In this document: positions 4,217 through 56,767 of the stretch, in pieces | Layout of the letters: the number at the start of each line of letters is the position of its first letter | Position numbering within the stretch: the first letter of the stretch is position 1 | Assembly (NCBI GenBank): GCA_017934545.1 | Contig: JAGBJI010000008.1 | Coordinates: 186,001-250,000, forward strand | DNA from: Bacteroidales bacterium | GTDB taxonomy: Bacteria; Bacteroidota; Bacteroidia; Bacteroidales; P3 | DNA: 64,000 nucleotides | Direction of reading: 5' to 3' | Position numbers and translations under genes: made by a program | Notes under the pieces: model-generated | What the model was told of the DNA's origin: nothing | The model's input: only the letters and a program-made list of their open reading frames with translations | Database searches by the model: none

Positions 4217-4996
4217 TTAAAACATTGCGGCGGCTTTTTCCAAACTTGCTTTCTTGCCTGCGTCCAACCACAATCCGTTGTATATATACGGTTTGATAAT
4301 GTTTTCGGCGGAAAGTTGCAGATACATGTCCGTAACGGAGAATTTGCCCGAAAGGTTTATCTTTTCAAAGATATCTTTGCTTATTATGTGAACGCCCGAA
4401 AAGGCAAACAAATGTTCCTTACGGCATTTGCGGGTAATGATTTTTTGATTTGTGGCGGTATTCACCCAACCCGAAAGTTCAAGGTTTTCGTTGAAAATCA
4501 GATAACGTGATGTTTGCCGTTGTTGAACACAGAGCAGTGCCAAACAATTGCTCTGAACAAAGGCTTTTTTCATGTCGTTGAAATCAATATTGCTCAACAC
4601 GTCTACATTGTGCAACAGTATGCAATTTTCATCATCTGATTCTGTAAAATTGTTTTCAGAAAAGAAAAAATCCTTTTCTGAAAACAATTTTTTCTTTTCT
4701 GAAAAGAATTTTCGTGCATACAGAAGTCCTCCTCCCGTATCCAAAAGCATGTTTCTTTCGTCCGAAATATTTATGCGGCAGTTGTATTTTTCGGCTAAAG
4801 CATTAAGGTTTTCAACCATCATATCGGGGAAATGATGGATATTGACCGTGATTGTGCGTATGCCAAACGACACCATCTTGCTGACAATGCGTTCAAGCAA
4901 CGTTGTGCCGTTTACTTCCATCAAGGCTTTTGGTTTAAAGTCGGTCAAAGGCCGCAGCCTTGTTCCCAATCCGGCTGCAAAAATCATTGCCTCCAT
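4217..4996 (-). CDS. Sugar-phosphate nucleotidyltransferase (MurU/ManC-like) carrying an in-frame repeat insertion
   Basis: 259 residues. The N-terminal AAGLGTRLRPLTDFKPKAL (residues 7-25) is the NTP-binding signature of nucleotidyltransferases that couple NTP to a sugar 1-phosphate. LDTGGGLL (85-92) and HNVDVLSNIDF (129-139, metal-binding Asp) are also present. The substrate is not decidable from sequence; MurNAc-1-P or a hexose-1-P are options. Residues about 97-117 are three 7-residue repeats (FFSEKKK, LFSEKDF, FFSENNF) encoded by a 21-bp palindromic repeat found elsewhere only in intergenic DNA. The loop there should be far shorter in relatives. It is the last gene of the minus-strand run starting at clpC, 15 nt after the HD phosphodiesterase gene. 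Confidence 0.85.
   Translation of the reverse strand: MEAMIFAAGLGTRLRPLTDFKPKALMEVNGTTLLERIVSKMVSFGIRTITVNIHHFPDMMVENLNALAEKYNCRINISDERNMLLDTGGGLLYARKFFSEKKKLFSEKDFFFSENNFTESDDENCILLHNVDVLSNIDFNDMKKAFVQSNCLALLCVQQRQTSRYLIFNENLELSGWVNTATNQKIITRKCRKEHLFAFSGVHIISKDIFEKINLSGKFSVTDMYLQLSAENIIKPYIYNGLWLDAGKKASLEKAAAMF
4652..4706. repeat. 21-bp phased palindrome array, 3 units, inside a coding sequence
   Basis: Units TTTTCAGAAAA, CTTTTCTGAAAAC and CTTTTCTGAAAAG have centres at 4658, 4679 and 4700, exactly 21 bp apart. The last two units and their spacer (34 bp, 4673-4706) are identical to the arrays at 18.2, 23.8 and 27.5 kb. The 21-bp period equals 7 codons, so the array adds a 7-residue repeat without shifting the frame. 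Confidence 0.9.
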
Positions 4997-5011
4997 TATG
5001 TGTTTGTTTAT

Positions 5012-7117
5012 TTAGAGTGTCTTTGCTGTCTGATTGACAGGATATTCTATTCTTACGTGATATATGCTTTGCAGTTTTTTCTTCAGAATGATTTTTATTC
5101 TTTCAACGTCTGCAAAGGTTATGTTTGCATTTGAAAACTGATTGTCCTGAATTTGTGCGTCTATGATGCCGTCCACAAGATTTGAAACCGATTGTTCGGA
5201 ATGTTCTTTCATACTCCGTGACGCCGCTTCCACACTGTCAACCATCATAAGCACCGCCGTTTCCCTTGAAAACGGTTTAGGTCCGGGATAAGTGTACAAT
5301 GCTGTGTCAATATGTGTGTCAGGGTGTTCGTTGCATTCCTTGTTGTAGAAATATTTTGTCTTTGAAGTGCCATGGTGCGTGCGGATAAAATCAACTATCG
5401 GCTCGGGTATTTTGTAGCGGTGTGCCAATTTTATTCCGTTGGTCACATGCGATATTATCACTTGGGCTGATTCTTCGTTGCTCAACTCGTTGTGCGGATT
5501 GATACCCGTGTTTTGATTTTCTATAAAATAAATAGGGGAGGACAGTTTGCCTATGTCGTGGTACAAACTTCCCGCTCTGACCAAAAGGGCGTTACCTCCT
5601 ATTTCGTGTATCAAGTCTTCGGCAATATTGGCTACCTGTATGCAGTGTTGGAATGTTCCCGGAGCCTTGACAGAGAGTTCCCTCAACAGCTTGGAATCCG
5701 TATTGGAATATTCCATAAGCGACATCTCACTTACCATTGAGAAGATTTTTTCCAGCACAAACACAATAGGAAAGGCAAAAAGCACCATCGCCGCATTTAC
5801 GGCAAAGTATATGAAACGGTAGATGTCCAATTGTTTCAGGTTGTTGTCCTGTATAAGCGTCATAGCCAAGTAAATAGCGGAGTAAGTGCAGAAGACAATG
5901 GCGGCGGTTTTGAAAAATTCAACGCGTTTTTCCAAATGTTCAACCGAAAGTATTGCCATCATTCCCGCTATGAGTTGATAGAATACAAATTCAAAACTGT
6001 TTGGTACAGAAAAGCCTATAATGATTATTGATACAAGGAATACATAAAGTGATACTTTAGTGTCAAAAAACGTTCTGACAAGTATCGGTGTAAGGCAAAG
6101 CGGAACTACATAAAGGTATTTTGCATCTATATGCAGCACACCTACCGTCATACCGACCATCATCAATATTATAAAAAAGATAAGTATAATTTTTTTGTTG
6201 TTCAAAAATATATCTTTGTCCGTATTGTATATAAACAACACCATAGCTCCGAGGGCAATGATGATTAACAGATATTGTCCAACCCAAGACAATATTTTTG
6301 AATATCTTTCGCTTTGATTGTTTACGCCTTCGTACTCGTTTTTAAGCGATGAAAGTATTTGGTATTTTTCCGCAGTGATAAGTTCGCCCTTTGAAATTAT
6401 TTCCTGATTTTTCGAAATCAAACCCTTGGTCATGGAAATGTCATCTGTCTGCGAAGCAAGTATATCTTCGGTTTTGGCGTTGTTGTATATAATATTAGGT
6501 ACAGTGATTTTAACCAAAATATCCGCTATTGCATCGGTTTCCGACGATGAAAGTTTGGCTGCGGAAGCAATGTTTTCTTTGATTATCTGTTCGGTTTGCT
6601 TGGTTGTATAAAACTCTCCGGTTTCGTGTTCTTGGGCTTGGTTGTTATTGATTATGATTATTGAGTTGTCGTCACGCTTTGTACCCGGGTAATCTGATAT
6701 TATACCGTGTTGGATTATGTTTTGCAGTATTTTTTCTGCGGCATACTGCAGTTGTTGTGCGTTTTTGGTTGCAATGTTGTTGCGTTGTATGTATGAAGAC
6801 AGTGCGTTTTGCAGATTGTCTTCCATCTTGGTGTTTATGCTGTTGTTGTAATCAAAGTAAAGTTTTTTGTTTGCAATGATTTCGTTTTTCTCTTCACTGA
6901 TTTCTCGTTCGGTTTTTTGTATTGCAAAATCAAAAGGGGATGTGAGGGTTTCGTGTTTCCAATAGTGGCCTTGTTGAAATTCGTATTTAAACGACGATTT
7001 GGCGGGAGTTATCATCACTATGATTGCTGCGGCAATCAGCACCTGAAGTATCCTGTTTGCCAACAAAAAGATTTGTTGTTTGGTATGGTCGGAAAAATTC
7101 TTCTTATCAAAAATCAT
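5012..7117 (-). CDS. Membrane HD-domain phosphodiesterase, PgpH/7TMR-HD family
   Basis: 701 residues. There is one N-terminal membrane segment (about 18-38), a long extracytoplasmic 7TMR-HDED-type region to about 290, a block of about seven transmembrane helices, and a cytoplasmic HD domain. In the HD domain HCIQVANIAEDL and the metal-binding motif in GSLYHDIGKL are clear. PgpH-family proteins degrade cyclic di-AMP to pApA; that substrate is inferred from family membership. The gene starts 3 nt after mlaF ends and stops 15 nt before the nucleotidyltransferase, so it is very likely cotranscribed with both. Confidence 0.9.
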   Translation of the reverse strand: MIFDKKNFSDHTKQQIFLLANRILQVLIAAAIIVMITPAKSSFKYEFQQGHYWKHETLTSPFDFAIQKTEREISEEKNEIIANKKLYFDYNNSINTKMEDNLQNALSSYIQRNNIATKNAQQLQYAAEKILQNIIQHGIISDYPGTKRDDNSIIIINNNQAQEHETGEFYTTKQTEQIIKENIASAAKLSSSETDAIADILVKITVPNIIYNNAKTEDILASQTDDISMTKGLISKNQEIISKGELITAEKYQILSSLKNEYEGVNNQSERYSKILSWVGQYLLIIIALGAMVLFIYNTDKDIFLNNKKIILIFFIILMMVGMTVGVLHIDAKYLYVVPLCLTPILVRTFFDTKVSLYVFLVSIIIIGFSVPNSFEFVFYQLIAGMMAILSVEHLEKRVEFFKTAAIVFCTYSAIYLAMTLIQDNNLKQLDIYRFIYFAVNAAMVLFAFPIVFVLEKIFSMVSEMSLMEYSNTDSKLLRELSVKAPGTFQHCIQVANIAEDLIHEIGGNALLVRAGSLYHDIGKLSSPIYFIENQNTGINPHNELSNEESAQVIISHVTNGIKLAHRYKIPEPIVDFIRTHHGTSKTKYFYNKECNEHPDTHIDTALYTYPGPKPFSRETAVLMMVDSVEAASRSMKEHSEQSVSNLVDGIIDAQIQDNQFSNANITFADVERIKIILKKKLQSIYHVRIEYPVNQTAKTL

Positions 7118-7120
7118 ATA

Positions 7121-7870
7121 TTATCTTTCTTTTATTTTTTTTGTCAATGCCGAACAAAATATAAAGTCATTCAACTCTTTGTTGTCCGATTCCAACACGT
7201 TGTGTTTGTCACCCTGCCAATGCAATTTGCCTTCGTATATAAATATAATGTTATCCCCGATTTCCATTACCGAGTTCATATCATGGGTATTTACGATAGT
7301 TGTCATGTTGAATTCTTTGGTAATGTCCATTATCAGATTGTCTATAAGAATGGAAGTTTGAGGGTCAAGTCCCGAGTTGGGTTCATCGCAAAACAAATAC
7401 TTGGGTCTTGCCGATATAGCGCGTGCTATCGCCACTCTTTTTCGCATTCCTCCGCTCAATTGCGAAGGAAACATCTTGTTTATCCCTTTTAGATTGACTC
7501 TTTCCAAACAATAATTAACTCTTTCCGCACGTGCTTTGCGTTTCATTGAGGAAAACATTCTCAAAGGAAACATAATATTTTCTTCAACGGTCATAGAATC
7601 AAACAAAGCTCCTTCTTGGAAAATAAACCCTATGTCTTTGCGTACGTCTATCTTCTGTTCCCGTGACATGTTTGCCAATATTCTGTCGTCATAAGACACG
7701 AATCCTTCTTCGGGTTGGTACAATCCTGCAATGGTACGCAGCAATACGGTTTTTCCGCTGCCCGATTTACCGATGATAAGGTTGCATTTGCCCGGAAAAA
7801 ATTCCGTATTAATGTTATCCAAAACCTTTTTACCCTGAAAATATTTTGAAACAGCGGAAACTTTAATCAT
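7121..7870 (-). CDS. mlaF: ABC transporter ATPase, MlaF-like phospholipid transport
   Basis: 249 residues with a complete ABC ATPase: Walker A GKSGSGKT (34-41), Q-loop FQEGALFD (84-91), signature LSGGMRKRVA (138-147) and Walker B YLFCDEP (158-164). The GALFD Q-loop and SGGM signature are typical of MlaF, the ATPase that drives lipid movement between the inner and outer membranes. mlaE lies 15 nt upstream on the same strand. No mlaD (MCE-domain) gene is in this run, so the substrate-binding partner must be encoded elsewhere. Confidence 0.9.
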   Translation of the reverse strand: MIKVSAVSKYFQGKKVLDNINTEFFPGKCNLIIGKSGSGKTVLLRTIAGLYQPEEGFVSYDDRILANMSREQKIDVRKDIGFIFQEGALFDSMTVEENIMFPLRMFSSMKRKARAERVNYCLERVNLKGINKMFPSQLSGGMRKRVAIARAISARPKYLFCDEPNSGLDPQTSILIDNLIMDITKEFNMTTIVNTHDMNSVMEIGDNIIFIYEGKLHWQGDKHNVLESDNKELNDFIFCSALTKKIKER

Positions 7871-7885
7871 AAGGCAAGGCTGCGG

Positions 7886-8635
7886 TTAGTTGAACAATTC
7901 GGTTATAAGAATATTGAAAATCATTATCACTATGGAACTTTGGACTACGGCTTTGGTTGATTGTTGTCCGACTTCAACGCTGCCGCCTTTTATGGTGTAT
8001 CCCCTGAAACAGGAAACGGTTGAAATAATTACGGCATTGACAATAATTTTAACCATTGCGTACCATAAGTCGCCCATCTCAAATTCCAATCGCAATCCTT
8101 CCACATAGTCAAACATTGTAAGCGTGCCTAACAACAATCCTCCCAACGCTCCTCCGATTAAAGCTACGAATATACTTTGTACGGCAAGGATAGGGAAAAA
8201 TATTACGCAGGCAAGTATCTTGGGCATTATAAGATAAGAAGCGGTGTTTACACCCATTATCTCAAGGGCGTCTATTTGCTCGGTTATACGTTGCGTTCCC
8301 AATTCGCTGGCTATACGTGAGGCACATTTGCCGGCAAGTATCAATGAAATGATTGTAGGGGAGAATTCCAGCATCATAGCTTTGCGTGACACAAATCCGT
8401 AAATCCATTTAGGATACATAGGGTTGTCCAAATTCAAAAGTATTTGCATCACCACGGCAGCACCGACGAATATACTTATAATAAGAACTATGACAATACT
8501 GTCAACACCCAAGGCTTTCATCTCAAAGATAATCCGCCGTGAAAAAACCTTCCAATTCTGAGGTTTTTTACATGCATCTTTCATAAGTAAAAGATACTGT
8601 CCGAAAGCAGTTATAAATCTTTTCAATGCCCCCAC
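7886..8635 (-). CDS. mlaE: ABC transporter permease, MlaE-like
   Basis: 249 residues. The family core is clear: ALGVDSIVIVLIISIFVGAA near residue 40, then a conserved block containing LAGKCASRIASELGTQRITEQ, then ALEIMGVNTASYLIMPK. Five or so hydrophobic segments follow. This is the membrane component of the Mla lipid transporter. It begins 4 nt after clpC ends and precedes mlaF, giving a permease-ATPase pair. Confidence 0.9.
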   Translation of the reverse strand: MGALKRFITAFGQYLLLMKDACKKPQNWKVFSRRIIFEMKALGVDSIVIVLIISIFVGAAVVMQILLNLDNPMYPKWIYGFVSRKAMMLEFSPTIISLILAGKCASRIASELGTQRITEQIDALEIMGVNTASYLIMPKILACVIFFPILAVQSIFVALIGGALGGLLLGTLTMFDYVEGLRLEFEMGDLWYAMVKIIVNAVIISTVSCFRGYTIKGGSVEVGQQSTKAVVQSSIVIMIFNILITELFN

Positions 8636-8639
8636 GTGC

Positions 8640-11198
8640 TTAACTTATTTCAAATTTCAGTTTTTTGGTTTTGCCTGAAGATTGTTTTACGGTTATGTGT
8701 TTTTTGTCTGAATTCAGATTTTCAAGCAACAATTCACTCAACGGGTCTTCTATTTCTTTTTGAATTGCCCGTTTAATAGGACGCGCTCCGAATTCATGTT
8801 TGTCATCCATATCCAAGATATGTTGTTTTGCTCCGTTGGTTACAGTCAGTGTAAAGCCCATTGCTTCGGTACGTGAGCGTAAAACCTGTAACTCCGTATC
8901 CACAATGTTAAACAAGTCTTTTTCGGTCAGAGAATTGAAGAACACAATATCGTCTATTCTGTTCAGAAATTCGGGTGCAAAAGTTTTTTGTATGTCTTTG
9001 TCAATTACATTTTGCTCAAGATGGCGGTTATTGTCCTGCCTTACCGACGTGGAAAAACCTACTCCCGTTCCGAAATCCTGCAAAGTGCGGCTGCCTACGT
9101 TGGATGTCATCACTATTATAGTATTGCGGAAATCCACCGTACGTCCCATGGAATCAGTAAGCCGTCCTTCGTCCAAGACTTGCAAAAGTAAGTTGAATAC
9201 ATCTTTGTGTGCTTTCTCTATTTCGTCAAACAACACTATTGAATACGGATGCAAACGCACTTGTTCCGTAAGTTGACCCGATTCTTCATAGCCTACATAA
9301 CCCGGAGCGGCACCTATAAGACGGGAAACATTTATCTTGTCCATGTATTCGCTCATATCAATCCGTATAATGCTGTCCGCACTTGAGAAAAGATACTCCG
9401 CAATGGTTTTGGCAAGATATGTTTTGCCCACACCTGTAGGACCTACGAAGATAAACGAGCCTATCGGACGGTTAGGGTCTTTCAATCCGGTACGGGAACG
9501 GCGTATGGCCTTGCAGATTTTGCTTATTGCCTCGTCCTGTCCTATAACTTTCTTTTTGATTACAGACTCCATGTCCAACAGTTTCTTTCTTTCGTCTTTT
9601 GAAACGCTGTCCACCGGAATTCCTGTCATGGAAGAAATAACTCCTGCTATATCGTCTTCGGTCACAAGTACGGGATTTGACTTTAAATGTTGTTCCCAAT
9701 TTTGTTTCATCACATTGTACGAATCCTGCAACGCCGCAATCTGATTTTTTACTGCGTTTGCCTGTTCGTATTGCTGTGCATTGACGAATTTTTGTTTGTC
9801 CTTTTCGGCACGTTCTATCCTTTGGGACAAATCAACCATCTCTTCTGGCAGGGCAATATTCTTTACATGCGAGCGTGAACCCGCTTCGTCCATAGCGTCT
9901 ATGGCTTTGTCGGGAAGAAACTTGTCGTTGATGTAACGGTCGGTGAAAGTAACGCAGGCTTTTACCGCTTCATCGGTATATTTCACCTTATGATATTGCT
10001 CGTAACAGTCTTTGATGTTGTGAAGTATCTCTATGGTTTGCTCCACAGTGGTAGGTTCTATCAATACTTTCTGAAAACGGCGTTCCAAAGCCGAATCCTT
10101 CTCAAAATATTTTCTGTATTCGCTGTTGGTGGTTGCACCTATGCACTGTATTTCACCGCGTGCCAATGCAGGTTTGAGTATGTTTGAGGCATCCAATCCG
10201 CCTTCTGCATTGCCCGCACCTATCATTGTGTGGATTTCGTCTATAAACAATATAAGGTCTTTGTTCTTTTGCAGTTCGTTCAATATGCCTTTAAGCCTTT
10301 CTTCAAACTGTCCGCGGTATTTTGTGCCTGCAACAACGGACGCAATGTCAAGGGTAAAGATACGTTTGCCTGCCAAAGTGTAAGGAACTTTCTTTTGGGC
10401 TATGTGCAATGCCAATCCTTCGGCTATGGCACTTTTTCCTACGCCCGCTTCTCCTACTAATATAGGATTGTTTTTCTTTCTGCGGGAAAGTATCTGGGCA
10501 ACGCGTTCTATTATGTCTTCCCTTCCGACGATAGGGTCCAATTCTCCTTTTTCCGCAGCCAAGGATAAGTCCTTGCCGAAGTTGTCCAAATATCTTGTTT
10601 GCGACTCTTCTTCGGTTTCTTTACGGCTTTGACGTGATTTAGACGAAGCACCGACGGAAGAAAATCCCGAGAATTTCTCCAACAATTCGGGAGCGTCGCC
10701 CTGCATGTATATTTCTATGCTTGCAGTGCTTATATCGGGTTGAATGCGTTTGTCGCTTTCGGTTTCAAAGTTGCGTATGTTTTCAAGCGTTATGTTGTTT
10801 TGCTCCAAAAAGTCGCGTATTGTATTACCCGGTTCAAGCCGCAATATGCCTGCAAGCAGATGTCTTGTGCCGACTTTAGGGTGATGACGTGAAAGCGATT
10901 CCAAAAATGCCAGCTGCAAAACCCTTGCCGCATTGTTGCTCATAGGGGTTACCGTCATTTGATTGACAGGCGAGGACGATGATGCGTCTTCGCTTTTTAT
11001 TATATTGTCCACACGGTCTTTGAATTCCGATAAATCGTTGACATATTTGCTTATTATCTGAGTGGCAGTACATGATTTGATTCTCAACATTCCCAGCACC
11101 AAATGGCCTGTATCTATGGCCGTGCTTTGCAAACGCAATGCTTCGTTGGAACCGTTTGTGAGTACTTGCTTTGCGTAATCAGTTAAGTTGTTGTTCAT
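8640..11198 (-). CDS. clpC: ClpC-type AAA+ unfoldase
   Basis: 852 residues. The protein has a double Clp-N domain (about 1-145), AAA1 with Walker A GEAGVGKSA (249-257), a short middle domain carrying a UVR-like coiled coil (LSQRIERAEKDKQKF and onward, about 425-465), AAA2 with Walker A GPTGVGKTY, and a ClpB-D2-like C-terminus. ClpC feeds unfolded proteins to ClpP. It is the first gene of a five-gene minus-strand run. A -7-like box lies 24 bp upstream. Confidence 0.95.
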   Translation of the reverse strand: MNNNLTDYAKQVLTNGSNEALRLQSTAIDTGHLVLGMLRIKSCTATQIISKYVNDLSEFKDRVDNIIKSEDASSSSPVNQMTVTPMSNNAARVLQLAFLESLSRHHPKVGTRHLLAGILRLEPGNTIRDFLEQNNITLENIRNFETESDKRIQPDISTASIEIYMQGDAPELLEKFSGFSSVGASSKSRQSRKETEEESQTRYLDNFGKDLSLAAEKGELDPIVGREDIIERVAQILSRRKKNNPILVGEAGVGKSAIAEGLALHIAQKKVPYTLAGKRIFTLDIASVVAGTKYRGQFEERLKGILNELQKNKDLILFIDEIHTMIGAGNAEGGLDASNILKPALARGEIQCIGATTNSEYRKYFEKDSALERRFQKVLIEPTTVEQTIEILHNIKDCYEQYHKVKYTDEAVKACVTFTDRYINDKFLPDKAIDAMDEAGSRSHVKNIALPEEMVDLSQRIERAEKDKQKFVNAQQYEQANAVKNQIAALQDSYNVMKQNWEQHLKSNPVLVTEDDIAGVISSMTGIPVDSVSKDERKKLLDMESVIKKKVIGQDEAISKICKAIRRSRTGLKDPNRPIGSFIFVGPTGVGKTYLAKTIAEYLFSSADSIIRIDMSEYMDKINVSRLIGAAPGYVGYEESGQLTEQVRLHPYSIVLFDEIEKAHKDVFNLLLQVLDEGRLTDSMGRTVDFRNTIIVMTSNVGSRTLQDFGTGVGFSTSVRQDNNRHLEQNVIDKDIQKTFAPEFLNRIDDIVFFNSLTEKDLFNIVDTELQVLRSRTEAMGFTLTVTNGAKQHILDMDDKHEFGARPIKRAIQKEIEDPLSELLLENLNSDKKHITVKQSSGKTKKLKFEIS

Positions 11199-11221
11199 AT
11201 CACAAGTTTTATTAAAGAATG

Positions 11222-11229
11222 CAAAAATA
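11222..11229 (-). promoter_or_regulatory. -7 promoter box for clpC
   Basis: The minus strand reads TATTTTTG, fitting TAnnTTTG, 24 bp upstream of the clpC ATG. The -33 element is not obvious. Confidence 0.4.
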
Positions 11230-11308
11230 CAAAATTCATTTTATTTTTCCGTTTACCTTATAACAATAGTTTTCAACACCTGAATATTAATATTTAACGG
11301 TCAAATCA

Positions 11309-12157: not shown

Positions 12158-12858
12158 TATATTTCAAACCTTTTTTGCCACAGCCTTACGAGGAAAAATC
12201 CCGCCAATGCTCCGCCCAAATGGGCAAAATGTGCCACTCCGTCCGAGGTATAAAAGATACCGTTGAGCAGTTCCAACACGCAATATCCTATAACGAACCA
12301 TTTGGTTTTGATAGGAAACAGGAAGTAAAGGTAAATGTATTGGTTGGGAAACATCATTCCGAAAGCCAAAAGCACGCCGAAACAAATTCCGCTCGCACCT
12401 ATGGTGTTCAGATGGTTGAGAAACTGTTCTTTGCTTACGGTTACAGAGCCGTTGATTTGCACTTGCATATAATCGCCGAACACTAAATCGCGGTACATGA
12501 ACAAATAAGTCAACTCCTGCATAAGAGCTGCACCCAATGCAGTGACAAGGCAATAAATCAAAAAGCGTTTGCCGCCCCATTGGTTTTCAAGCGTGTAGCC
12601 GAACATCCAAATGGCAAACATGTTGAAAAACAAATGGGAAAAACTTCCGTGCAGAAAAGCGTAAGAAATCAACTGCCAGATATGGAAATTTGAGGCTGCA
12701 AAAAAATGCAATCCGAAAACCGATTCCAAATCTATTCCCCTGAGTTTTAAGACTACTGTAAGCAAGTATGCTATGGCGTTGATTATGATTAAATTTTTAC
12801 ACACCGGAGGCAATATGGAGAAATTTCTCGGTGAATATTGGTCGCTGTTGGTATACAT
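12157..12858 (-). CDS. Rhomboid-family intramembrane serine protease
   Basis: 233 residues, about six transmembrane helices. The catalytic dyad is visible: Ser156 in GASG and His213 in FAHLGG. The oxyanion-helping HxxxN motif is at 75-79 (HLFFN). Rhomboids cleave transmembrane substrates within the membrane. It is the promoter-proximal gene of a pair with the Usp-like gene. Confidence 0.9.
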   Translation of the reverse strand: MYTNSDQYSPRNFSILPPVCKNLIIINAIAYLLTVVLKLRGIDLESVFGLHFFAASNFHIWQLISYAFLHGSFSHLFFNMFAIWMFGYTLENQWGGKRFLIYCLVTALGAALMQELTYLFMYRDLVFGDYMQVQINGSVTVSKEQFLNHLNTIGASGICFGVLLAFGMMFPNQYIYLYFLFPIKTKWFVIGYCVLELLNGIFYTSDGVAHFAHLGGALAGFFLVRLWQKRFEI

Positions 12859-12894: not shown

Positions 12895-13070
12895 CGAAAA
12901 TTTTCCGTACATACTCCGCCCCCTGTTCAAAATTTGAACGCAGATACATATACCGACGGTTAAATATTTGAATTACAATAATCTAATGAGTATATACGGT
13001 ACATTATTATATAAAAATACTTACAACTTTTTATGAATTAAATAATGGTAAATGTGCATTGAAAAAATTG

Positions 13071-13172
13071 TTTTGTGAAAAGAAAAATAAAAAACATATG
13101 TTTTTGAAGAAAAAAACATATGTTTTTTGATTAAAATTCATATGTTTTTTTATAAAAATACATATGTTTTTT
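13071..13172. repeat. 22-bp phased palindrome array, CATATG type
   Basis: A TTTTGTGAAAA unit centred at 13076 is followed by four CATATG palindromes flanked by A and T runs. CATATG starts at 13095, 13117, 13139 and 13161, exactly 22 bp apart. The array sits between the divergent rhomboid and hydF promoters. I see nothing else definable in 12895-13070 apart from a lone GTTCAAAATTTGAAC palindrome near 12930. Confidence 0.9.
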
Positions 13173-13288
13173 TGAAACGTTTTCTCAAAAGAGATATTTG
13201 CAGCAATGTTTTGCGGCGGTATAGAACGGAAAGACCGTTAAAATGCAGTTTTATTCCGAAGTGTTTTCCGAATTCTGAATAAAATGAT

Positions 13289-16302: not shown

Positions 16303-16304
16303 TA

Positions 16305-18207: not shown

Positions 18208-18213
18208 CCAATA

Positions 18214-18250
18214 TCCTTTTCTGAAAACAATTTTTTCTTTTCTGAAAAGA
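18214..18250. repeat. 21-bp phased palindrome array, 2 units
   Basis: CTTTTCTGAAAAC and CTTTTCTGAAAAG are centred at 18222 and 18243. The 34-bp block they span is identical to that in the arrays at 4.7, 23.8 and 27.5 kb. A weaker inverted repeat TAAAG/CTTTA follows at 18258-18273. The array lies directly upstream of tsaC. Confidence 0.9.
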
Positions 18251-18337
18251 GTAAAAGTAAAGCGGCACCTTTATTCTGATGTTTCTTATTTATTGAAAAA
18301 TGAACAAAGATGACGCTTTATCAAAAACAGATTTCTT

Positions 18338-23767: not shown

Positions 23768-23819
23768 TTTTACGCCATACTACAAAAAGGCAGGAGAAAG
23801 ACGTCTTTTCATTAAAACT

Positions 23820-23875
23820 CTTTTCAGAAAAGGATTTTTTCTTTTCTGAAAACAATTTTTTCTTTTCTGAAAAGA
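23820..23875. repeat. 21-bp phased palindrome array, 3 units
   Basis: CTTTTCAGAAAAG, CTTTTCTGAAAAC and CTTTTCTGAAAAG are centred at 23826, 23847 and 23868. This is the 5' part of a composite that recurs at 27.5 kb. Confidence 0.9.
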
Positions 23876-23931
23876 GTTTTGATGTTTTCGGAATATGTTT
23901 TTGCAGACCGTGTGATTTTTATTTTTTTTCG

Positions 23932-24087
23932 TGGCACACATAGTGGCACACTTCTGTTTTTTATAAAAAATTAGCAATCAATTGTTTACAAAGGTGGCAC
24001 ACATTGGCACACTTTTTTTATATAAACTTTTTTTGATTAAAAATCTTTAATAGAAAATAAGTGTGCCAATGTGTGCCATGTGTGCCA
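23932..24087. repeat. GTGTGCC-type stem-loop element, copy 1
   Basis: A perfect 17-bp inverted repeat (23996-24012, beginning GGCACACATT; partner 24061-24077, ending AATGTGTGCC) encloses a 48-nt AT-rich loop. Extra GGCACAC copies lie at 23933-23951 and a further GTGTGCC at 24080-24086. A diverged homologue lies at 27629-27784. The rest of the 23768-24271 gap holds the palindrome array and the truA promoter. Confidence 0.8.
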
Positions 24088-27372: not shown

Positions 27373-27514
27373 AGTATTACTTTACCTTAAATTTTGTTTT
27401 AAAAACTTTTGCATAAAACATAAAACCACAAAGTAAACTTTTGAAAAACGCCGTATAAAAACCGCTTCGGCAATTTATTTTTCAATATTAATACAATCAT
27501 TTTTCACCGAAACT

Positions 27515-27570
27515 CTTTTCAGAAAACAAAAAATTCTTTTCTGAAAACAATTTTTTCTTTTCTGAAAAGG
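27515..27570. repeat. 21-bp phased palindrome array, 3 units
   Basis: CTTTTCAGAAAAC, CTTTTCTGAAAAC and CTTTTCTGAAAAG are centred at 27521, 27542 and 27563. The array precedes the second stem-loop element, as at 23.8 kb. Confidence 0.9.
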
Positions 27571-27628
27571 ATTTTGAAATTTTTGCAACTTATTTTCCGC
27601 AAGACTTAAAATTTTTGTGTTTTTTGTC

Positions 27629-33327: not shown

Positions 33328-33328
33328 G

Positions 33329-33431
33329 CCTTTTGTGAAAACAATCCCGAAAAAACCTATTTTTTTAAGGCAAAAAAATAGGTTTTTTGAGTAAAAAAAT
33401 CTGATTTTTTTCAAATCCTTTTCTGAAAAGG
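33329..33431. repeat. 22-bp phased palindrome array, 5 units
   Basis: Centres are at 33336 (TTTTGTGAAAA), 33358 (A6-CCTA-T7), 33380 (A7-TAGG-T6), 33402 (A7-TCTGA-T7) and 33424 (CCTTTTCTGAAAAGG), all exactly 22 bp apart. Different palindrome types share one period, which links the A7/T7 type to the TTTTCTGAAAA type. Confidence 0.9.
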
Positions 33432-33475
33432 CGGAAACAAGGCAGCGAAAAGCAAAATTCTTTTAATTAAAAGCA

Positions 33476-33543: not shown

Positions 33544-34641
33544 ATGCAAACCGATAAAAACAATTATTGCGTTATTATGGCGGGGGGAATAGGTTCAAGG
33601 TTTTGGCCTATGAGCCGTATGGATAAACCCAAACAGTTTTTGGACGTTTTGGGTACGGGCGAAAGCCTTATCCAAATGACTTACAACAGGTTTAAAAACA
33701 TTTGCCCCGTTGACAACATATACATAGTAACCAACAAAATATATAAAGACCAAGTAAAACAGCAACTCAAAGGCATCAAAGACGACCGCATACTGTGCGA
33801 ACCAGCACGCCGCAACACTGCACCGTGCATAGCCTTTGCCAATTTCAAAATATTGAAAGAAAATCCTTCGGCAAACATTATCGTAGCACCGTCAGACCAT
33901 TTGATTTTGAAAGAAGACAAGTTCTGCGAAGTGGTAAACGAAGCGTTGAAAGCGGCAAAGGAAAATGAAATTTTGATAACTTTGGGTATCAAACCCTCAT
34001 ATCCGAACACCGGATACGGATACATACAGTACGACAAGGTGGACGGATTGGCGTCGGACAACAACTTAAAGAAAGTCAAACTCTTTACCGAAAAACCCGA
34101 TTTGGCTATGGCGGAGAAATTTATTCAAAGCGGCGACTTTTTGTGGAATGCGGGCATATTCATATGGTCGTTGAAAGCCATAAACAACGCTCTGCAACAA
34201 TATCTGCCCGATATTTACAACGCCTTTAACGAGGGTCTGCAGTTTTTCAATACGGACAACGAACAGGATTTCATCAACGAAGCCTACACTTCGTCGCAGT
34301 CCATATCCATTGACTACGGCGTGATGGAAAAAGCAACCAATGTCTATGTGATGCCGAGCGATTTCGGTTGGAGCGACGTAGGAACGTGGAAAGCCTTGTA
34401 TGACGTGCGTGAAAAGGATTCGCAGTCAAACAGCGTAAAGGGTAAAAACGTTATGCTTTATTCGTCAAGAGAAAACATTATAACGGTTGACGACAACAAG
34501 TTGGCGGTAATTCAGGGCTTGAACGATTACATAGTGGTTGATTCACAGAACGTTTTGCTTATCTGTAAGAAGAGCGAAGAACAGCGTATCAAACAGTTTT
34601 TGACCGACGTTGAAGTTCAAAAAGGCAAGGAATACCTGTAA
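33544..34641 (+). CDS. manC: Mannose-1-phosphate guanylyltransferase
   Basis: 365 residues. The motif MAGGIGSRFWPMSRMDKPKQF (split here as MAGGIGSRFWP and MSRMDKPKQF) is the GDP-mannose pyrophosphorylase signature; FTEKPDLAMAEKF and WNAGIFIW follow. It makes GDP-mannose from GTP and mannose 1-phosphate. It is the GT domain only, without the isomerase domain of bifunctional enzymes. Confidence 0.9.
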   Translation: MQTDKNNYCVIMAGGIGSRFWPMSRMDKPKQFLDVLGTGESLIQMTYNRFKNICPVDNIYIVTNKIYKDQVKQQLKGIKDDRILCEPARRNTAPCIAFANFKILKENPSANIIVAPSDHLILKEDKFCEVVNEALKAAKENEILITLGIKPSYPNTGYGYIQYDKVDGLASDNNLKKVKLFTEKPDLAMAEKFIQSGDFLWNAGIFIWSLKAINNALQQYLPDIYNAFNEGLQFFNTDNEQDFINEAYTSSQSISIDYGVMEKATNVYVMPSDFGWSDVGTWKALYDVREKDSQSNSVKGKNVMLYSSRENIITVDDNKLAVIQGLNDYIVVDSQNVLLICKKSEEQRIKQFLTDVEVQKGKEYL

Positions 34642-43041: not shown

Positions 43042-43078
43042 AACGGCTGTCCTCTTGGGGACGGCCGTTATTTGTTTT
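43042..43078 (+). terminator. Intrinsic terminator after the HU gene
   Basis: AACGGCTGTCC (43042-43052) pairs with GGACGGCCGTT (43059-43069) with one G-T pair and a 6-nt loop; ATTTGTTTT follows. Confidence 0.85.
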
Positions 43079-43107
43079 AATAAATTGTAAAGTCAAAAAA
43101 CAATTCC

Positions 43108-43190
43108 GCAAAACCGTTTTACAAACTCTGCAAAACCGTCTTGCAGGCATTGCAAAACCGTTTTGCAACCATTGCAAGACGGTTTTGCAG
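43108..43190. repeat. 22-bp phased palindrome array, CAAAACCGTTTTG type, 4 units
   Basis: Centres are at 43115, 43137, 43159 and 43181. Unit 3 is a perfect GCAAAACCGTTTTGC-type palindrome. Units 2 and 4 each differ by one base (CGTCTTG and AAGACGG). It fills most of the gap between the HU terminator and the bcd promoter. Confidence 0.9.
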
Positions 43191-43307
43191 AAAATTGATT
43201 CTAAAATAAATTCGAAGAAATAAGTTTTTACATCATTAGTTTGCGGTTTTGAATTGTTGGTTTCACACAAAGACTGCATTTTTTTAGTAAATATATAGGA
43301 TTTGCCA

Positions 43308-46368: not shown

Positions 46369-46415
46369 ATTAAAAACTGAATTCAAACAATCGGATGTTC
46401 ACTTTGCCGCCGCCC

Positions 46416-46495
46416 TTTCTGAAAAGAAAGTCAAAAAAATCAGATTTTTTGCCGTAAAAAAATAGGTTTTTTGCTTAAAAAAATCACATTTTTTT
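46416..46495. repeat. 22-bp phased palindrome array, A7-N5-T7 type, 4 units
   Basis: Centres are at 46420 (TTTCTGAAA), 46442 (A7-TCAGA-T6), 46464 (A7-TAGG-T6) and 46486 (A7-TCACA-T7), exactly 22 bp apart. It lies between etfA and the transketolase N-half. No clear promoter box was seen in the rest of 46369-46591. Confidence 0.9.
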
Positions 46496-46591
46496 GAAAT
46501 TAAAACCGCAAGGGGCGGAAATTAAATCAGACGGGGCAGTAGCGTAACAAACAAAGGCATTGAACGTCCGATTGTTAAAAATGATAAATTA

Positions 46592-48867: not shown

Positions 48868-48879
48868 ATTATAAACAAA

Positions 48880-49833
48880 ATGACAGAATATCCGATATTA
48901 GGAGAAAAAGATACAAGGAGCGGATTTGCCGAAGGTCTTGTGATTGCAGGAGAGGAAAACGAGAATGTAGTGGCATTGTGTGCGGACTTAACTCCGAGCG
49001 TACGCATGGATTTGTTTGCCAAAGCCTATCCCGAGAGATTTTTTCAGGTAGGAATAGCCGAAAGCAATATGATTGGAATAGCTTCGGGTATGGCCTTGAA
49101 AGGCAAGGTTCCGTTTGTAGGCTCGTTTGCCGCCTTTGCAACGGGCAGAACATACGACCAAATCAGACAAAGCGTTTCTTACACGGGGGCGAATGTAAAG
49201 ATTGCCGGTTCACATGCAGGTATTACTTTGGGCGAAGACGGTGCTACGCACCAGATATTGGAAGATATAGGTCTTATGAAGATGCTTCCCGACATGGTTG
49301 TCATCAATCCGTGCGATTTCAATCAAACAAAACAGGCAACCATTGCGGCTGCACGGCATCAAGGTCCCGTTTATTTAAGGTTCGGACGCCCGAAAGTTCC
49401 GGTATTTATACCAGAAGACATGCCCTTTGAGATAGGTAAAGCCGTTCAACTAACGCAAGGCAGCGATGTATCCGTATTTGCAACGGGTCATTTGGTATTC
49501 CCCGCTTTGCAGGCGTGCAAACAACTTGAGCAAGAGGGTATAAGTACCGAAGTAATCAACATCCACACCGTTAAACCGTTGGATAAACAGGCTGTATTGG
49601 CATCCGCAGCGAAGACAAAGTGCGTTGTAAGTTGCGAAGAGCATATGTTCAACGGCGGATTGGGCGATTCAATAGCACAACTGTTGGCTTTGAATCTTCC
49701 GTTGCCGATGGAATACGTGGCAATAGACGATAAGTTCGGTCAATCGGGCAAACCAATGCAGTTGATGGAGCATTACGGGCTGACATCGGCTAATATTGTC
49801 AACGCAGTAAAGAAAGTCATTGCAAGAAAATAA
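48880..49833 (+). CDS. Transketolase, C-terminal half
   Basis: 317 residues. TRSGFAEGLVIAGEENENVV, RFFQVGIAESNMIGIASGMAL (as RFFQVGIAESN and MIGIASGMAL, with the catalytic Glu that activates TPP), SHAGITLGEDGATHQ and the C-terminal swivelling domain are all present. It pairs with the N-half at 46.6 kb. The helicase start codon follows the stop directly. Confidence 0.92.
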   Translation: MTEYPILGEKDTRSGFAEGLVIAGEENENVVALCADLTPSVRMDLFAKAYPERFFQVGIAESNMIGIASGMALKGKVPFVGSFAAFATGRTYDQIRQSVSYTGANVKIAGSHAGITLGEDGATHQILEDIGLMKMLPDMVVINPCDFNQTKQATIAAARHQGPVYLRFGRPKVPVFIPEDMPFEIGKAVQLTQGSDVSVFATGHLVFPALQACKQLEQEGISTEVINIHTVKPLDKQAVLASAAKTKCVVSCEEHMFNGGLGDSIAQLLALNLPLPMEYVAIDDKFGQSGKPMQLMEHYGLTSANIVNAVKKVIARK

Positions 49834-51945: not shown

Positions 51946-51991
51946 AATTTTAATTTTTCGTTTTAATTTTGCCGATTGCCGTTTCAGCAGT

Positions 51992-52076
51992 AAAAAAAGC
52001 GGCTTTTTTCACCGAAAAAAAGTGGTTTTTTGCATCAAAAAAGCAGGTTTTTTCAGTCAAAAAAAGTGCTTTTTTT
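51992..52076. repeat. 22-bp phased palindrome array, A7-N5-T7 type, 4 units
   Basis: Centres at 52001 (core GCGGC), 52023 (GTGG), 52045 (GCAGG) and 52067 (GTGC), each flanked by 6-7 A and 6-7 T. All four cores differ while flanks and spacing are kept. It lies after the helicase in a convergent gap of about 770 bp. Confidence 0.9.
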
Positions 52077-52472
52077 ATCAGTAAAAGGCCGTTCGGCAAA
52101 TTTTTTTTCTGTAAATAAAAATTTTAAGTCAACATTTAGCAATTATACTCTGCAATAACTGTATCAATCAAATGTACAATCATATGTACTCAAGTTTGCA
52201 GACAAATCATGTTTATTTGAATATTATTACTCTGACAATGAATTAGATTCAAAGAAATCTGCATTCGTATTAGTTTAGGCGATTTTGAAGGACTTACAAT
52301 GATACGTAAATTATGTTAAAGCAAATAACTAATAAACTGAATTGACGGATAAATCAAACGGAATCAAAACAAAGAAAAATTTTTTCAAATAATACGGTGG
52401 TAAATACAGAACATGAAAAAAAATTTTGTGAAAGCATATCCGTGCGGTATATATTAAATAAGGTGAAAAATA

Positions 52473-52535
52473 TTTTGTATACGGTACAAAACATATTATG
52501 TACGGTTCAAAATAAATTATATAACGGTAAAAATA
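52473..52535. repeat. 22-bp phased weak palindrome array, TACGGT type, 3 units
   Basis: TGTATACGGTACA, ATGTACGGTTCAA and TATAACGGTAAAA are centred at 52482, 52504 and 52526. Symmetry is weaker than in other arrays. Between the two arrays (52080-52470) the DNA is AT-rich and I see no gene or definable site. Confidence 0.65.
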
Positions 52536-52655
52536 TATTATATAAATGTACGGACTGAATATATTTACAGTATTTTGAGGGTTAATTCTTGTAAAGCACA
52601 ATTTAAACATAATTGATATTATGTAAACTATAATATTAAAAAGAAGTAAAAATAA

Positions 52656-52686
52656 AGAAACGGAGTTTTTGTATCACCCCGTTTCT
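52656..52686 (-). terminator. Terminator of the TPR gene
   Basis: AGAAACGG (52656-52663) pairs with CCGTTTCT (52679-52686). On the minus strand the hairpin is followed by TTTATTTTTAC. It ends transcription from the TPR gene and possibly gyrA. Confidence 0.65.
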
Positions 52687-52717
52687 AACAAAAACAAAAA
52701 TATGGTTAGATTAAGTT

Positions 52718-53956
52718 TTATTTCTGCAGTAAGGCATTCAGTTTAGCGTTAACTGAATCCAATTCTTTTTTGTATTCGGCTTTTTTGTCTGCAGGTGCAG
52801 TTGCGCTGCCTCCCAAACGTGAGTAGATTGTTTTCAATGCTTTCAATGAATTGAAGTCATTGTCTTTTATCTTCAATGCGTTTTGGAAATAAGGAATGGC
52901 GTCTTCCATATATTTATATGCTTCCGCAATCTTTTTATCGTACGCTGCCTGTTGGTCAGGAGGAATATTGTTGGCTTCGGTTATCAAGTCAACTGCTTTG
53001 TTGAAGTTTGCAAGACCTATACCCCGCTGTGCATCCAATTGGTTGTTATCTATTGCAAGCGATTTTTTGTACAATTCGGTTGCTTTCTCCACTTGGCTTT
53101 GGTCAACGTATATTCCGGCAATGCTGTTCAACGTTCTGGTGTCGTTTGCACCCTTTGCAAGCAAATCGTCCAACAATTTGTCAGCTTCCTGCTGCTTTCC
53201 TGCCCAAATATATGCACTTGCAAGCGACGATTTCATAATAACGTTGTTTGCAGCATCCTTTTCAGTCATCTTAACACCCTTTTTCAACGCATTCAACGCC
53301 TTGGTGGTATCCCCTGCCTGCTTGTTTGCGGCATAAATCTTCAAATACACGTCGGCTTTGGTAGTGTTGCGTTTGGCCATATCACGGTACAATGCCATTT
53401 CTTTCTCGGGTTGTTTCAACATACGGTAACAATCTGCCTGATAGTACAACGCATCGTCCAACAATTCCGAATGCTTTGCTATCTCGGCATCTTCAGCTAC
53501 TTTGGCAAACATAGGTGCTGCCTTTTCGTATTGACCGTCGTTGTAAACGTTTCCTGCAAACATGTACTCATATCCGCACAAAACTTTCAAAGCTTCTATT
53601 GACGAATTCACATATTCGTGAGTGCCTGCTTTTTCTTCCAATTCCAAACATTTTCTCAGGCTTGCTATACCCGTAGCACACAATTCCTCTATCGGAGTGT
53701 CTATCTTCTGTTTTTTAAACAGTTTTTTGTTGTTGTTGGAAGCGTCAACGATTTGTGCATAAATAAGGCCTGAATAGTTCCAAGTCTTAGGGTCGTTCAT
53801 CGTTTTCTCGTTCTGACAAGCCTCGTCTATATTCTTTTTGGCGTTGGCAAGTCTTTCGTTCTTCATATCAGAATATGCACTCTGAACTTTCATTGATTGG
53901 GCATTGACACCCAATGCCACAGCCAACAAAGATACCAATACAATGCTTTTTTTCAT
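52718..53956 (-). CDS. Secreted tetratricopeptide-repeat protein
   Basis: 412 residues with a signal peptide ending GVNAQ. At least six TPR-like units follow, for example YEKAAPMFAKVAEDAE, PEKEMALYRDMAKRN, VEKATELYKKSLAIDNNQLDA and ALKIKDNDFNSLKAL. TPR proteins act as periplasmic or outer-membrane scaffolds; the partner is unknown. It lies 37 nt after gyrA with no promoter box in between, so it is probably cotranscribed. Confidence 0.8.
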   Translation of the reverse strand: MKKSIVLVSLLAVALGVNAQSMKVQSAYSDMKNERLANAKKNIDEACQNEKTMNDPKTWNYSGLIYAQIVDASNNNKKLFKKQKIDTPIEELCATGIASLRKCLELEEKAGTHEYVNSSIEALKVLCGYEYMFAGNVYNDGQYEKAAPMFAKVAEDAEIAKHSELLDDALYYQADCYRMLKQPEKEMALYRDMAKRNTTKADVYLKIYAANKQAGDTTKALNALKKGVKMTEKDAANNVIMKSSLASAYIWAGKQQEADKLLDDLLAKGANDTRTLNSIAGIYVDQSQVEKATELYKKSLAIDNNQLDAQRGIGLANFNKAVDLITEANNIPPDQQAAYDKKIAEAYKYMEDAIPYFQNALKIKDNDFNSLKALKTIYSRLGGSATAPADKKAEYKKELDSVNAKLNALLQK

Positions 53957-53993
53957 CTCTTGATTTTTGTTTTTTATTGTTTATAATCTGTTT

Positions 53994-56525
53994 TTATTCT
54001 TCTGTTTGGTTTTCATTTGCTTGTTTATCGGTATCAACAACCGTTCCGTTTTCGTCAACTGTATCATTGTCAACGATTTCTTCGTGTTGAACTTTTGCAA
54101 CCGCTGCAATAACGTCTTTCTTTTTAAGGTTTATCAACTTCACACCTTGCGTTGCTCGTCCCATAACCCTCAAAGAATTTATTGCCAATCGGATTGTGAT
54201 TCCCGAACGGTTCATTATCATCAAATCATCGTCGTCATTAACGTCTTTAATTGCTATAAGGCTACCCGTTTTATCGGTTATGTTGATGGTTTTTACACCC
54301 TTGGTTCCGCGGTTTGTCTTTCTGTATTCATCGCTGTCACTCCTTTTGCCGTATCCGTTCTCTGATACAACCATTATGTTTTGCGATAAATCGTTTATAC
54401 ATACCATTCCGATTACTTCGTCCTCTTCACCTGCCAACGTAACGCCTTTTACGCCTGATGCACCGCGACCCATAGGCCGTATAAGTTCTTCGTTGAACCT
54501 TACACAGCGACCTGCTTTGGTTCCGATGTATATTTCGTTTTTGCCGTCAGTAAGTTTGGCTTCAAGCAATTCATCTCCTTCGCGGATAGTCAGTGCAATT
54601 ATTCCCTTGGTTCTAGGACGTGAATAAGCCTCAAGCGAAGTTTTCTTTATTATACCGTTCTTTGTGCAAAGTATGATATAGTTCTGATTTACGTAATCCG
54701 CATCTTTCAAATCGCGGGTGTTGACAAAGGCTTTGATTTGTTCGCCTTCCTCAATCTGAAGCATGTTCTGAATGGCACGACCCTTGGATGTTTTGTTGCC
54801 TTCGGGTATTTCGTAAACACGCATCCAATATACCTTGCCTTTGTTAGTGAACATAAGAAGATAATCGTGCGTTGAAGCCACGTAGACATGCTCTATAAAG
54901 TCTTCATCTCTTGTCGAAGAACCTTTGGAACCCATTCCGCCGCGGTTCTGTGTCTTGTATTCCGAAAGCGGAGTGCGTTTTATATAACCCAAATGCGAAA
55001 CCGAAATAACCACTTCCTGATTCGGAATCATGTCTTCTATAACAAAATCTTTGGAAGAGTATTCTATTTCGCTTCTTCTCGCATCGCCGTATTTTTCTTT
55101 TATTGCAATAAGTTCGTCTTTCACCACTTGCAACAAAACATTTATGTCCGAAAGAATTTCTTTGCACCTTGCGATGAATTCAGCCAACTTGTCGTGTTCG
55201 TCCTGCAACTTATTGCGTTCCAAACCCGTCAATTGACGAAGACGCATTTCAACGATGGCCGATGCCTGTAAGTCGGAAAACTGCCAACGTTCTATCATCG
55301 TATCCTTTGCCATCTGAACCGTCTGGGAAGAACGTATAACGTTGATGATTTCGTCTATAATATCCAAAGCCTTTAACAATCCTTCCACTATGTGCATCCG
55401 CTCTTCGGCTTTTTTCAACTCGTAACGCGTACGGCGTTCCACCACTTGTTTGCGGTGTTCTACGAAATTAAAGATAATGTCTTTCAGATTCAACAGTTTG
55501 GGTTTGCCTCCGACAAGGGCTATATTGTTTATGGAAAACGACGATTGCAATTCGCTGTACTGATAAAGTTTGTTCAAAACAACACGGCTTATTGCGTCTT
55601 TTTTCAACTTATAAACAATACGTATTCCGTCCTTATTACTTTCGTCTTTGATGTCCGCCAATCCTTCTATTTTCTTTTCCGCCATGAGCATTGCCTGATG
55701 TTCAATCATCTCGCTCTTGCATACTTCGTAAGGAATGGAGGTTACAACTATTTGTTCCCTGTCTGTTTTGTCGTTGTGTTCTATATTGGCATGCCCTCTG
55801 ATGACCACCCTGCCCTTTCCCGTGTGATAGGCTTCTTTCACTCCGTCGTAACCGTAGATTATACCTCCTGTCGGAAAATCCGGAGCTTTGATGTACTGCA
55901 TCAACTCGTCTATTGTGATGTCCGGGTTGTCAATATATGCCACTATACCGTCTATTGACTCGCTCAAATTGTGGGGAGCCATGTTTGTAGCCATACCTAC
56001 GGCTATTCCGTTGGTACCGTTGACCAGCAAGTTGGGTATACGCGTAGGCAACACCGTCGGTTCACGCAACGAATCGTCAAAATTGTTTTGAAAATCAACC
56101 GTGTCCTTGTCTATATCGGCCAACAGTTCGGCTGCTATTTTGGACATTCTGGCTTCGGTGTAACGCATGGCTGCGGGCGAGTCCCTGTCTATTGAACCGA
56201 AATTGCCCTGACCGTCAACCAAAGGGTATCTCAAAGCCCAGTGTTGTGCCAAACGCACCATTGCAAAATATACGGACGAATCTCCGTGCGGATGATATTT
56301 ACCCAGCACCTCTCCTACTATTCTTGCCGATTTCTTGTGTTTAGTATTGTAAGTCATGCCCATATCGCCCATTGCGAACATTATTCGGCGTTGAACGGGT
56401 TTCATTCCGTCACGGGCGTCGGGCAAAGCTCTTGCGACTATAACGCTCATCGCATAGTCTATATAAGCTTGTTTCATTTGAGTTTCAATATCAACTCTTT
56501 GTATTCTTCCGTTTAACTGCTCCAT
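53994..56525 (-). CDS. gyrA: DNA gyrase subunit A
   Basis: 843 residues. The catalytic tyrosine is Tyr122 in [10 protein letters not shown], the same number as in E. coli. The quinolone-resistance region reads [17 protein letters not shown], with Ser83 kept and Phe at position 87. The GyrA-box-like [11 protein letters not shown] identifies it as GyrA rather than ParC. The acidic C-terminal tail is long (after about 800). A well-formed promoter lies upstream. Confidence 0.95.
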
Positions 56526-56547
56526 AGTCTAATCCAAAAATAATATG

Positions 56548-56577
56548 CAAATTTAGTCATTTTTTTCCATTTGACAA
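56548..56577 (-). promoter_or_regulatory. Promoter for gyrA
   Basis: The minus strand reads TTG (56577-56575), 19 bp, then TAAATTTG (56555-56548), 22 bp before the gyrA ATG. Confidence 0.7.
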
Positions 56578-56664
56578 TGAAAATTCCGCAAAAAAATACT
56601 TGCAATACCTTATTAATATATGTAAAGCGTGAAAACAAATCAGTGGATTTTGAAAGCAAATTTG

Positions 56665-56767
56665 TGTTTTCAGAAAAGAAATTGATTTGAACCGTCCGAA
56701 AGTTAGTTTCAGACCGTCCAAAATATACTTTTGGACGGTTCAAAAGTTGATTTCAAACGGTTCAAAA
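56665..56767. repeat. 21/22-bp phased palindrome array, ACCGTCC/GGACGGT type, 5 units
   Basis: TTTTCAGAAAA is centred at 56672, then units at 56693, 56715, 56737 (TTGGACGGTTCAA) and 56759 (AAACGGTTC). Spacings are 21, 22, 22 and 22 bp. It lies between the divergent gyrA and mutL-operon promoters. Confidence 0.85.

Follow-up and report, generated by a model that had tools for sequence, protein, structure and literature searches.

Palindrome arrays with a 21- or 22-bp step and species-specific sequences in a genus of rumen Bacteroidales

The stretch of Bacteroidales DNA analyzed here (the window; 64,000 nucleotides) carries short runs of palindromes whose centers lie 21 or 22 bp apart. Arrays of this pitch are spread across the genome of the window (G000, a 2.38-Mb assembly in 14 contigs; other G numbers denote further sampled genomes) and across several congeners, in which they consist of unrelated sequence families. 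The pitch is present within families and at the junctions between them, and arrays also lie in frame within two protein genes, at one of which different species carry their own families. Some of the change between close genomes comes in steps of one unit. The original prediction for this DNA was that eleven loci carry palindromes with exact 21- or 22-bp phasing; this proved real and, in 450 kb of G000, of a larger scale than described. Three points go beyond it, namely, that the families differ between species, that arrays occur in frame within genes, and that a position inside a gene can outlast its sequence. Our preferred explanation, held with a little less than even confidence, is that the arrays are dispersed modular palindromic repeats that are rewritten by unit and by recombination, with their pitch held by side-by-side dimers of a putative protein.

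Arrays were detected as three palindromes with 9-bp arms at a constant step, with a sum of at least 20 or at least 21 of 27 pairs and at least 5 pairs in each palindrome. This detector replaced an early crude pair test (2 pairs versus 0 in 5 shuffles). The window held 10 arrays at a score of at least 20 and 8 at a score of at least 21, compared to means of 0.35 (maximum of 2) and 0.1 (maximum of 1) in 40 dinucleotide shuffles made within 120-bp blocks. Nine of the eleven predicted loci were recovered at period 21 or 22 (4.65, 13.07, 23.82, 27.52, 33.33, 43.11, 46.42, 51.99, and 56.67 kb), and the tenth match in the window, at 12.03 kb within an open reading frame (ORF), is probably due to chance. 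At 18.21 kb, the palindromes are present as two units 21 bp apart but do not form a three-unit array, while at 52.47 kb the 21-bp tandem repeat stands and its dyads are weak (4 to 6 of 9 pairs). The predicted palindrome centers were accurate, as 19 of 20 lay no more than 0.5 bp from the best local dyad, with the remaining one (33336) off by 1 bp. Two of these centers, 33336 and 46420, are weak end units (4/9 and 5/9 pairs, respectively). Classes A to E were named by reading and are mutually unrelated sequences. Class A is TTTTCWGAAAA with a step of 21 bp, classes B and B' are A-tract/T-tract dyads with a step of 22 to 23 bp, and classes C (GGACGGTC-type), D (CATATG core), and E (GCAAAACCGTTTTGC) each have a step of 22 bp. 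The loci in the window are as follows.

4217..4996, minus strand: NTP-transferase gene (PF00483), host of an in-frame array
4647..4711, no strand: class A array (3 units, 21 bp), located in frame within the NTP-transferase gene
13065..13190, no strand: class D array (CATATG core) of 4 units of 22 bp
18213..18252, no strand: two class A units, 21 bp apart
23815..23879, no strand: class A array of 3 units, 21 bp
27510..27574, no strand: class A array of 3 units, 21 bp
33328..33435, no strand: class B array of A-tract/T-tract dyads, 22 bp, with outer class A-like units in phase, the left one weak
43106..43192, no strand: class E array (GCAAAACCGTTTTGC) of 4 units of 22 bp
46412..46497, no strand: class B array with a 22-bp step and a weak outer class A-like unit (5/9 pairs)
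51990..52089, no strand: class B' array of 4 units, about 22 bp
52449..52544, no strand: degenerate 21-bp repeat array with weak dyads
56665..56783, no strand: class C array of GGACGGTC/TTTGAACCGTCC dyads with a 22-bp step, flanked by class A-like units

The wider scan gave the same picture, with palindrome spacings across 450 kb of G000 that were not random but concentrated at 21 to 22 bp. At a score of 21, there were 18 matches at 21 bp, 2 at 21.5, 41 at 22, and 7 at 22.5, while control period bins averaged 0.17 with a maximum of 1. G000 also had 6 matches at 23 bp and 29 at 33 bp, the latter fitting dyads that also fall at the half-period, and bins from 14 to 20 and from 24 to 30 bp were close to background. 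By a looser count, the 450 kb contains 68 array regions, a few of them chance matches within ORFs, which extrapolates to roughly 300 to 350 regions in the whole genome.

Within classes, 29/31 A-A steps were 21 bp, and 13/13 C-C, 37/38 D-D, and 4/4 E-E steps were 22 bp; class B was more variable (33 at 22, 16 at 23, 2 at 21, and 1 at 24; n = 52). Class D is rigid; when elements with three or more cores at distances of 18 to 26 bp were collected from 550 kb, all 27 had four units and 81/81 steps were 22 bp. Between classes, A-C steps were 21 bp in 10/10 cases, A-D steps were 21.5 bp in 8/11, and A-B steps were 21 to 22 bp in 29/36, with the caveat that junction counts inside one composite family are not independent of each other. 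A B-D row was dropped as an artifact, since 73 of its 118 steps were one palindrome counted by two patterns. Taken together, the 21/22-bp step is common to unrelated families and is also mostly kept at their junctions.

The outermost units are frequently class A-like, as around the class D array at 13065..13190 (6/9 pairs on the left and 5/9 on the right). A strict class A search beside the 27 D elements found 9 units at 21.5 bp on the left, and 9 at 21.5 and 1 at 22.5 bp on the right, with no match for the rest. Beside six C blocks, class A units lay at 21 bp (three), at 43 bp (one), or were missing (two) on the left, and at 21 bp (two), 42 bp (one), and 43 bp (one) or were missing (two) on the right; the strict search found none beside two E blocks. 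This nested order bears on a competing explanation, in which MITE-like selfish palindromic elements are moved by a putative transposase, with older arrays as the preferred targets of newer families (giving A-B-B-B-A or A-D-D-D-D-A) and the pitch as a recombinase footprint. The fixed four-unit class D element with its 27 copies in 550 kb, the A units outermost, the in-frame arrays within genes, and the species-specific families all fit such elements. However, Y1_Tnp, the one transposase family searched, has no match in the 14 genomes of the genus, no empty site could be aligned to reveal target-site duplication, and the exact 21-bp changes between G002 and G006 (below) are not element-sized insertions. 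Complementarity of the outer arms to an element's own partner arm was weak in class B (P = 0.02; 23 of 24 elements scored) and absent in class D (own, 6.9; other, 7.8; P = 0.99; 27 elements), and whole-array hairpins with arms matched in this way were rejected. We consider the MITE-like explanation possible but doubtful.

The comparison with related genomes showed that several congeners bear arrays of the same pitch but of other sequences. Strict matches at exactly 21 and 22 bp numbered 4 and 10 in G001, 0 and 6 in G009, 3 and 0 in G002, and 0 and 6 in G013. By reading, the palindromes of G001 are A7CNGT7 at 22 bp and ATC...GAT types at 21 bp, those of G002 are GTGTTAAACAC at 21 bp, those of G013 are GTACTGNCAGTAC at 22 bp, and the G009 sample holds arrays of palindromes other than those of G000. 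At a looser score, G005 had two 21-bp arrays in 80 kb, and G014, from another genus, had one 22-bp example within 20 kb. No matches were found in the samples of G008 (108 kb), G015 (100 kb), and G018 (80 kb), which implies that any function is dispensable. Among 80 Bacteroidales loci (1.38 Mb), L051 alone had strict matches at 21 to 22.5 bp, and L052 and L053 bear arrays that fell below the strict score. The families themselves are narrowly distributed. Class A tandem pairs numbered 31 in G000 and 0 in 13 congeners, and the G002 family gave 12 matches in G002 and G006 and 0 in 12 other genomes. In 54 unique units of the G002 family, within-unit covariation was seen at the two innermost pairs only (P = 0.02 and 0/500).

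One intergenic example is the class E array at 43106..43192, which is flanked by genes that Pfam assigns to HU and acyl-CoA dehydrogenase; the matching gap in the relatives L051 and L052 holds, by reading, arrays of other families. The closest named matches of the acyl-CoA dehydrogenase are Bacteroidales metagenome-assembled genomes (MAGs), the first four of them recovered from the rumen or omasum of deer or belonging to a RUG bin. The array-bearing genus is one of rumen gut bacteria.

Short-term change was followed in G002 and G006, which share six collinear blocks at 95 to 96% identity. Ten spots fell below 72% identity in 60 bp. Four of these (near G002 66235, 201431, 225119, and 243520) reach a phased-palindrome score of 19 or more in one or both genomes, two (78741 and 217343) are 21-bp repeats with weaker dyads, and the remaining four show ordinary sequence divergence. 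Alignment gaps of exactly 21 bp are present at 78741, 217343, and 225119, and another at 201431 adjoins the array rather than lying within it; at 66235 and 243520, whole units are replaced. G006 33887-34009 links G002 83733 to 243524 in inverted orientation, so that collinearity switches at arrays, and the two G002 arrays involved are, by reading, inverted copies of each other. Because the assemblies are fragmented, this rearrangement may be a misassembly at repeats. A 5.5-kb stretch at an array is found only in G006; when three of its ORFs were searched against Pfam, one matched DUF4332 and two had no match, so that no recombinase was seen among these three. The exact gaps and whole-unit swaps are also what would be expected if the arrays were a mutational by-product, that is, functionless palindromic minisatellites grown and corrected by hairpin slippage or template switching. 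However, the 14- to 20-bp and 24- to 30-bp bins are near background although the families that pick 21 to 22 bp are unrelated, and we know of no reason for slippage to choose this length across unrelated families. We regard this origin as improbable.

Sequence turnover at a fixed position is seen in the NTP-transferase gene. In an alignment of G000 and 23 orthologues (after removal of 6 of 30 loci that were partial, distant, or overlong; G007 had no match), 7/10 same-genus sequences, including G000, have an insertion at one position, compared to 0/14 sequences from other genera. Tandem Repeats Finder reported period 21 at this spot with unrelated units in G000, G001, G002, and G012 and nothing in G004. 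The G006 insertion matches that of G002 at all but one base of the compared stretch, and the G009 insertion holds two class A dyads with a 21-bp spacing. The insertions of G001, G012, and G004 have weak dyads, with no center that reached 7/8 pairs. The seven insertion-bearing sequences form one clade (support of 0.997) in a one-gene tree built without the insertion columns, which favors a single ancient insertion whose sequence was later replaced. The second gene is an epimerase (PF01370) with an in-frame class A array in G000. In G001, the one relative compared, reading shows a 21-bp family particular to that genome at the corresponding place; Tandem Repeats Finder gave no repeat for this G001 spot. 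More arrays lie within long ORFs of G002, G006, and G009, these ORFs being only putative genes.

For intergenic positions, conservation between species looks suggestive when flagged gaps are read. Among 29 G000/G001 gaps, at a score threshold of 20 or more, 2 had arrays in both genomes, 2 in G000 only, 4 in G001 only, and 21 in neither. When 6 of the 8 flagged gaps were read, G000 had an array in five, and a G001 array was seen in 5/5; this agreement by eye is biased because only flagged gaps were read and the 21 others were left out. With uniform rescoring of orthologous gaps, co-occurrence was not significant for G001 (Fisher P = 0.08 to 0.40 by threshold), ranged from P = 0.036 (at one of four thresholds) to 1.0 for G002, and was not seen for G009 (P = 0.8 to 1.0) or G013 (P = 0.99 to 1.0). 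Uniform scoring thus does not establish intergenic slot conservation.

The orientation of the gaps addresses the idea that the arrays are transcription terminators or RNA hairpins. With genes taken as the longest ORFs, the 68 regions of G000 comprised 34 in tandem gaps, 20 in divergent gaps, 6 in convergent gaps, 5 in ORFs, and 3 at edges. For the 60 regions with known neighbors, the available gap DNA was 34.5 kb tandem, 15.0 kb divergent, and 7.9 kb convergent. While class B palindromes do end in T-tracts, the 6/60 convergent regions are no excess over the 7.9 kb of convergent gap DNA, which makes the arrays unlike terminators, and the window had no Rfam match at gathering score. This is the least probable of the explanations considered, and we give it very little weight.

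The original prediction offered a protein-binding array, curved-DNA boundaries, or a self-propagating repeat. The first and last survive, while curvature from phased A/T tracts as a shared design is weakened. Curved-DNA boundaries would suit G001, whose adjacent A-tracts are mostly 10 or 12 bp apart (58 and 40 of 122), and class B, which is composed of A- and T-tracts. However, A-tracts numbered 406 in 62 arrays of G000 but only 12 in 6 arrays of G002 and 9 in 5 arrays of G013 (the last still about 11 bp apart), and their spacing in G000 is broad, mostly 6 to 14 bp. A-tract curvature is therefore not general to the array families, and a boundary role resting on it is very unlikely.

With 10.5 bp per turn, a length of 22 bp makes 2.1 turns, and placement of every dyad on the same face, as had been proposed, would thus require underwound DNA. 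Both one-face placement and a protein that fixes the pitch are inferences; no pitch-setting protein was found in this analysis. The HU gene at 42.7 kb, proposed as a candidate, is PF00216 by Pfam, and no link between it and the arrays was found from the sequence. HU-HIG (PF18291) had 14 matches in G000, 30 in G002, 16 in G006, 13 in G009, 9 in G013, and 39 in G014, but only 4 each in the array-bearing G001 and G005, with 5 in G008. Because of these low counts, and because the PF18291 model also matches ordinary HU, HU-HIG is a weak candidate. SbcD was above the cutoff in G000, G001, G002, G004, and G006, four of which are array bearing here, and had no match in the array-bearing G013 and G005 (85% complete). 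Loss of SbcD as a simple rule for palindrome persistence was therefore rejected. Neither the SbcD nor the HU-HIG distribution cleanly tracks the arrays.

Returning to our preferred explanation, the arrays would consist of a few dyad-symmetric units in a row, each 21 or 22 bp long and spanning about two helical turns, and may swap units by recombination or conversion, through which each species' own families could take over older positions. A dimeric DNA-binding protein would sit on consecutive dyads as adjacent dimers that share one face of the duplex, and arrays of another pitch would not be retained. Given the family turnover, the sequence preference of such a protein must change or be loose. 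Counting against this explanation are the variable class B steps, the covariation confined to the innermost pairs, the samples free of arrays, the gap comparison that does not establish co-occurrence, the low palindrome scores at six of the ten divergent G002/G006 spots, and the blank Tandem Repeats Finder results for the NTP-transferase gene of G004 and the epimerase gene of G001. A more far-reaching version, which we hold less probable than this and rather speculative, is that the genus carries dyad arrays locked to the duplex pitch, that a protein reads the two-turn spacing over the letters, and that families sweep inherited positions, genes included. A protein that sets the pitch would represent a novel means of writing sites on a chromosome; failing that, some mutational process able to gauge two helical turns would be required.

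In the open-access literature, with most subscription papers outside it, the titles and abstracts listed gave no description of pitch-locked palindrome arrays in this group. Three known systems come close. Rickettsia palindromic elements (RPE) also comprise several palindromic families in frame within protein genes, according to the available parts of two papers (PMC10969869, PMC3733652), and two genes of G000 share this trait. As described there, RPE span about 150 bp and have a conserved peptide (PMC10969869), unlike the 21/22-bp, mostly intergenic units here, and those parts do not mention helical-pitch modularity. REP/BIME sequences with RAYT are likewise dispersed, clustered, and mostly extragenic palindromes, GTAG- or CGTC-tagged in the available portion of the source (PMC3733652). 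In contrast, the arrays here belong to several unrelated families with a single pitch, in a genus with no Y1 transposase. PF01797 had 0 matches in 14/14 genus genomes (completeness of 69 to 100%), while 5/14 control genomes were positive, and mobilization by RAYT is thereby ruled out.

Porphyromonas gingivalis belongs to the same bacterial order as the array genus. Its BrickBuilt MITE has dispersed 23-nt tandem units with strain-varying repeat number but, in the available text, is a single family whose leader and tail segments contain inverted repeats, and the main text as available never uses the string "palindrom" (PMC4596501). BrickBuilt is strictly intergenic in the part of the later paper available (PMC10969869), whereas arrays here lie inside two genes. 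Nor is a 23-nt unit the rule, since classes A, C, D, and E have 21 or 22 bp and only class B reaches 23 (16/52). As to the terminal inverted repeats and target-site duplications of MITEs in general, the arrays showed nested outer units, and no empty site could be aligned. Bacterial palindromic repeats are usually defined by their sequence; here, the letters change from species to species, and what is retained is the pitch and, for two genes, also the place of the array.

At locus L265, a 5.5-kb stretch (L265:9145-14692) is present in G006, a congener of the window's genome (G000), and missing from a second congener, G002. The site of this difference coincides exactly with an array. We examined three ORFs from the stretch; one carried DUF4332, while the other two had no Pfam match.

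An additional 21/42-bp repeat was found in G002 downstream of the NTP-transferase gene (PF00483), at L176:3528-3654 of the locus L176. Judging by its position, this is the G002 repeat that has a 21-bp difference in G006.

Within the window, an inverted repeat of 40 bp with the ends TGGCACACA lies at 23995-24087, together with a short tandem of GTGTGCCAT. Both are apparently distinct from the phased arrays. A GC-rich hairpin (window 43043-43075) follows the HU gene and, judged by reading, is probably the ordinary terminator of that gene. The array at 43106-43192 adjoins this hairpin, the two being distinct features.

Several members of the genus and family are rich in matches to HU-HIG (PF18291), with 14 in G000, 30 in G002, and 39 in G014, which belongs to another genus.
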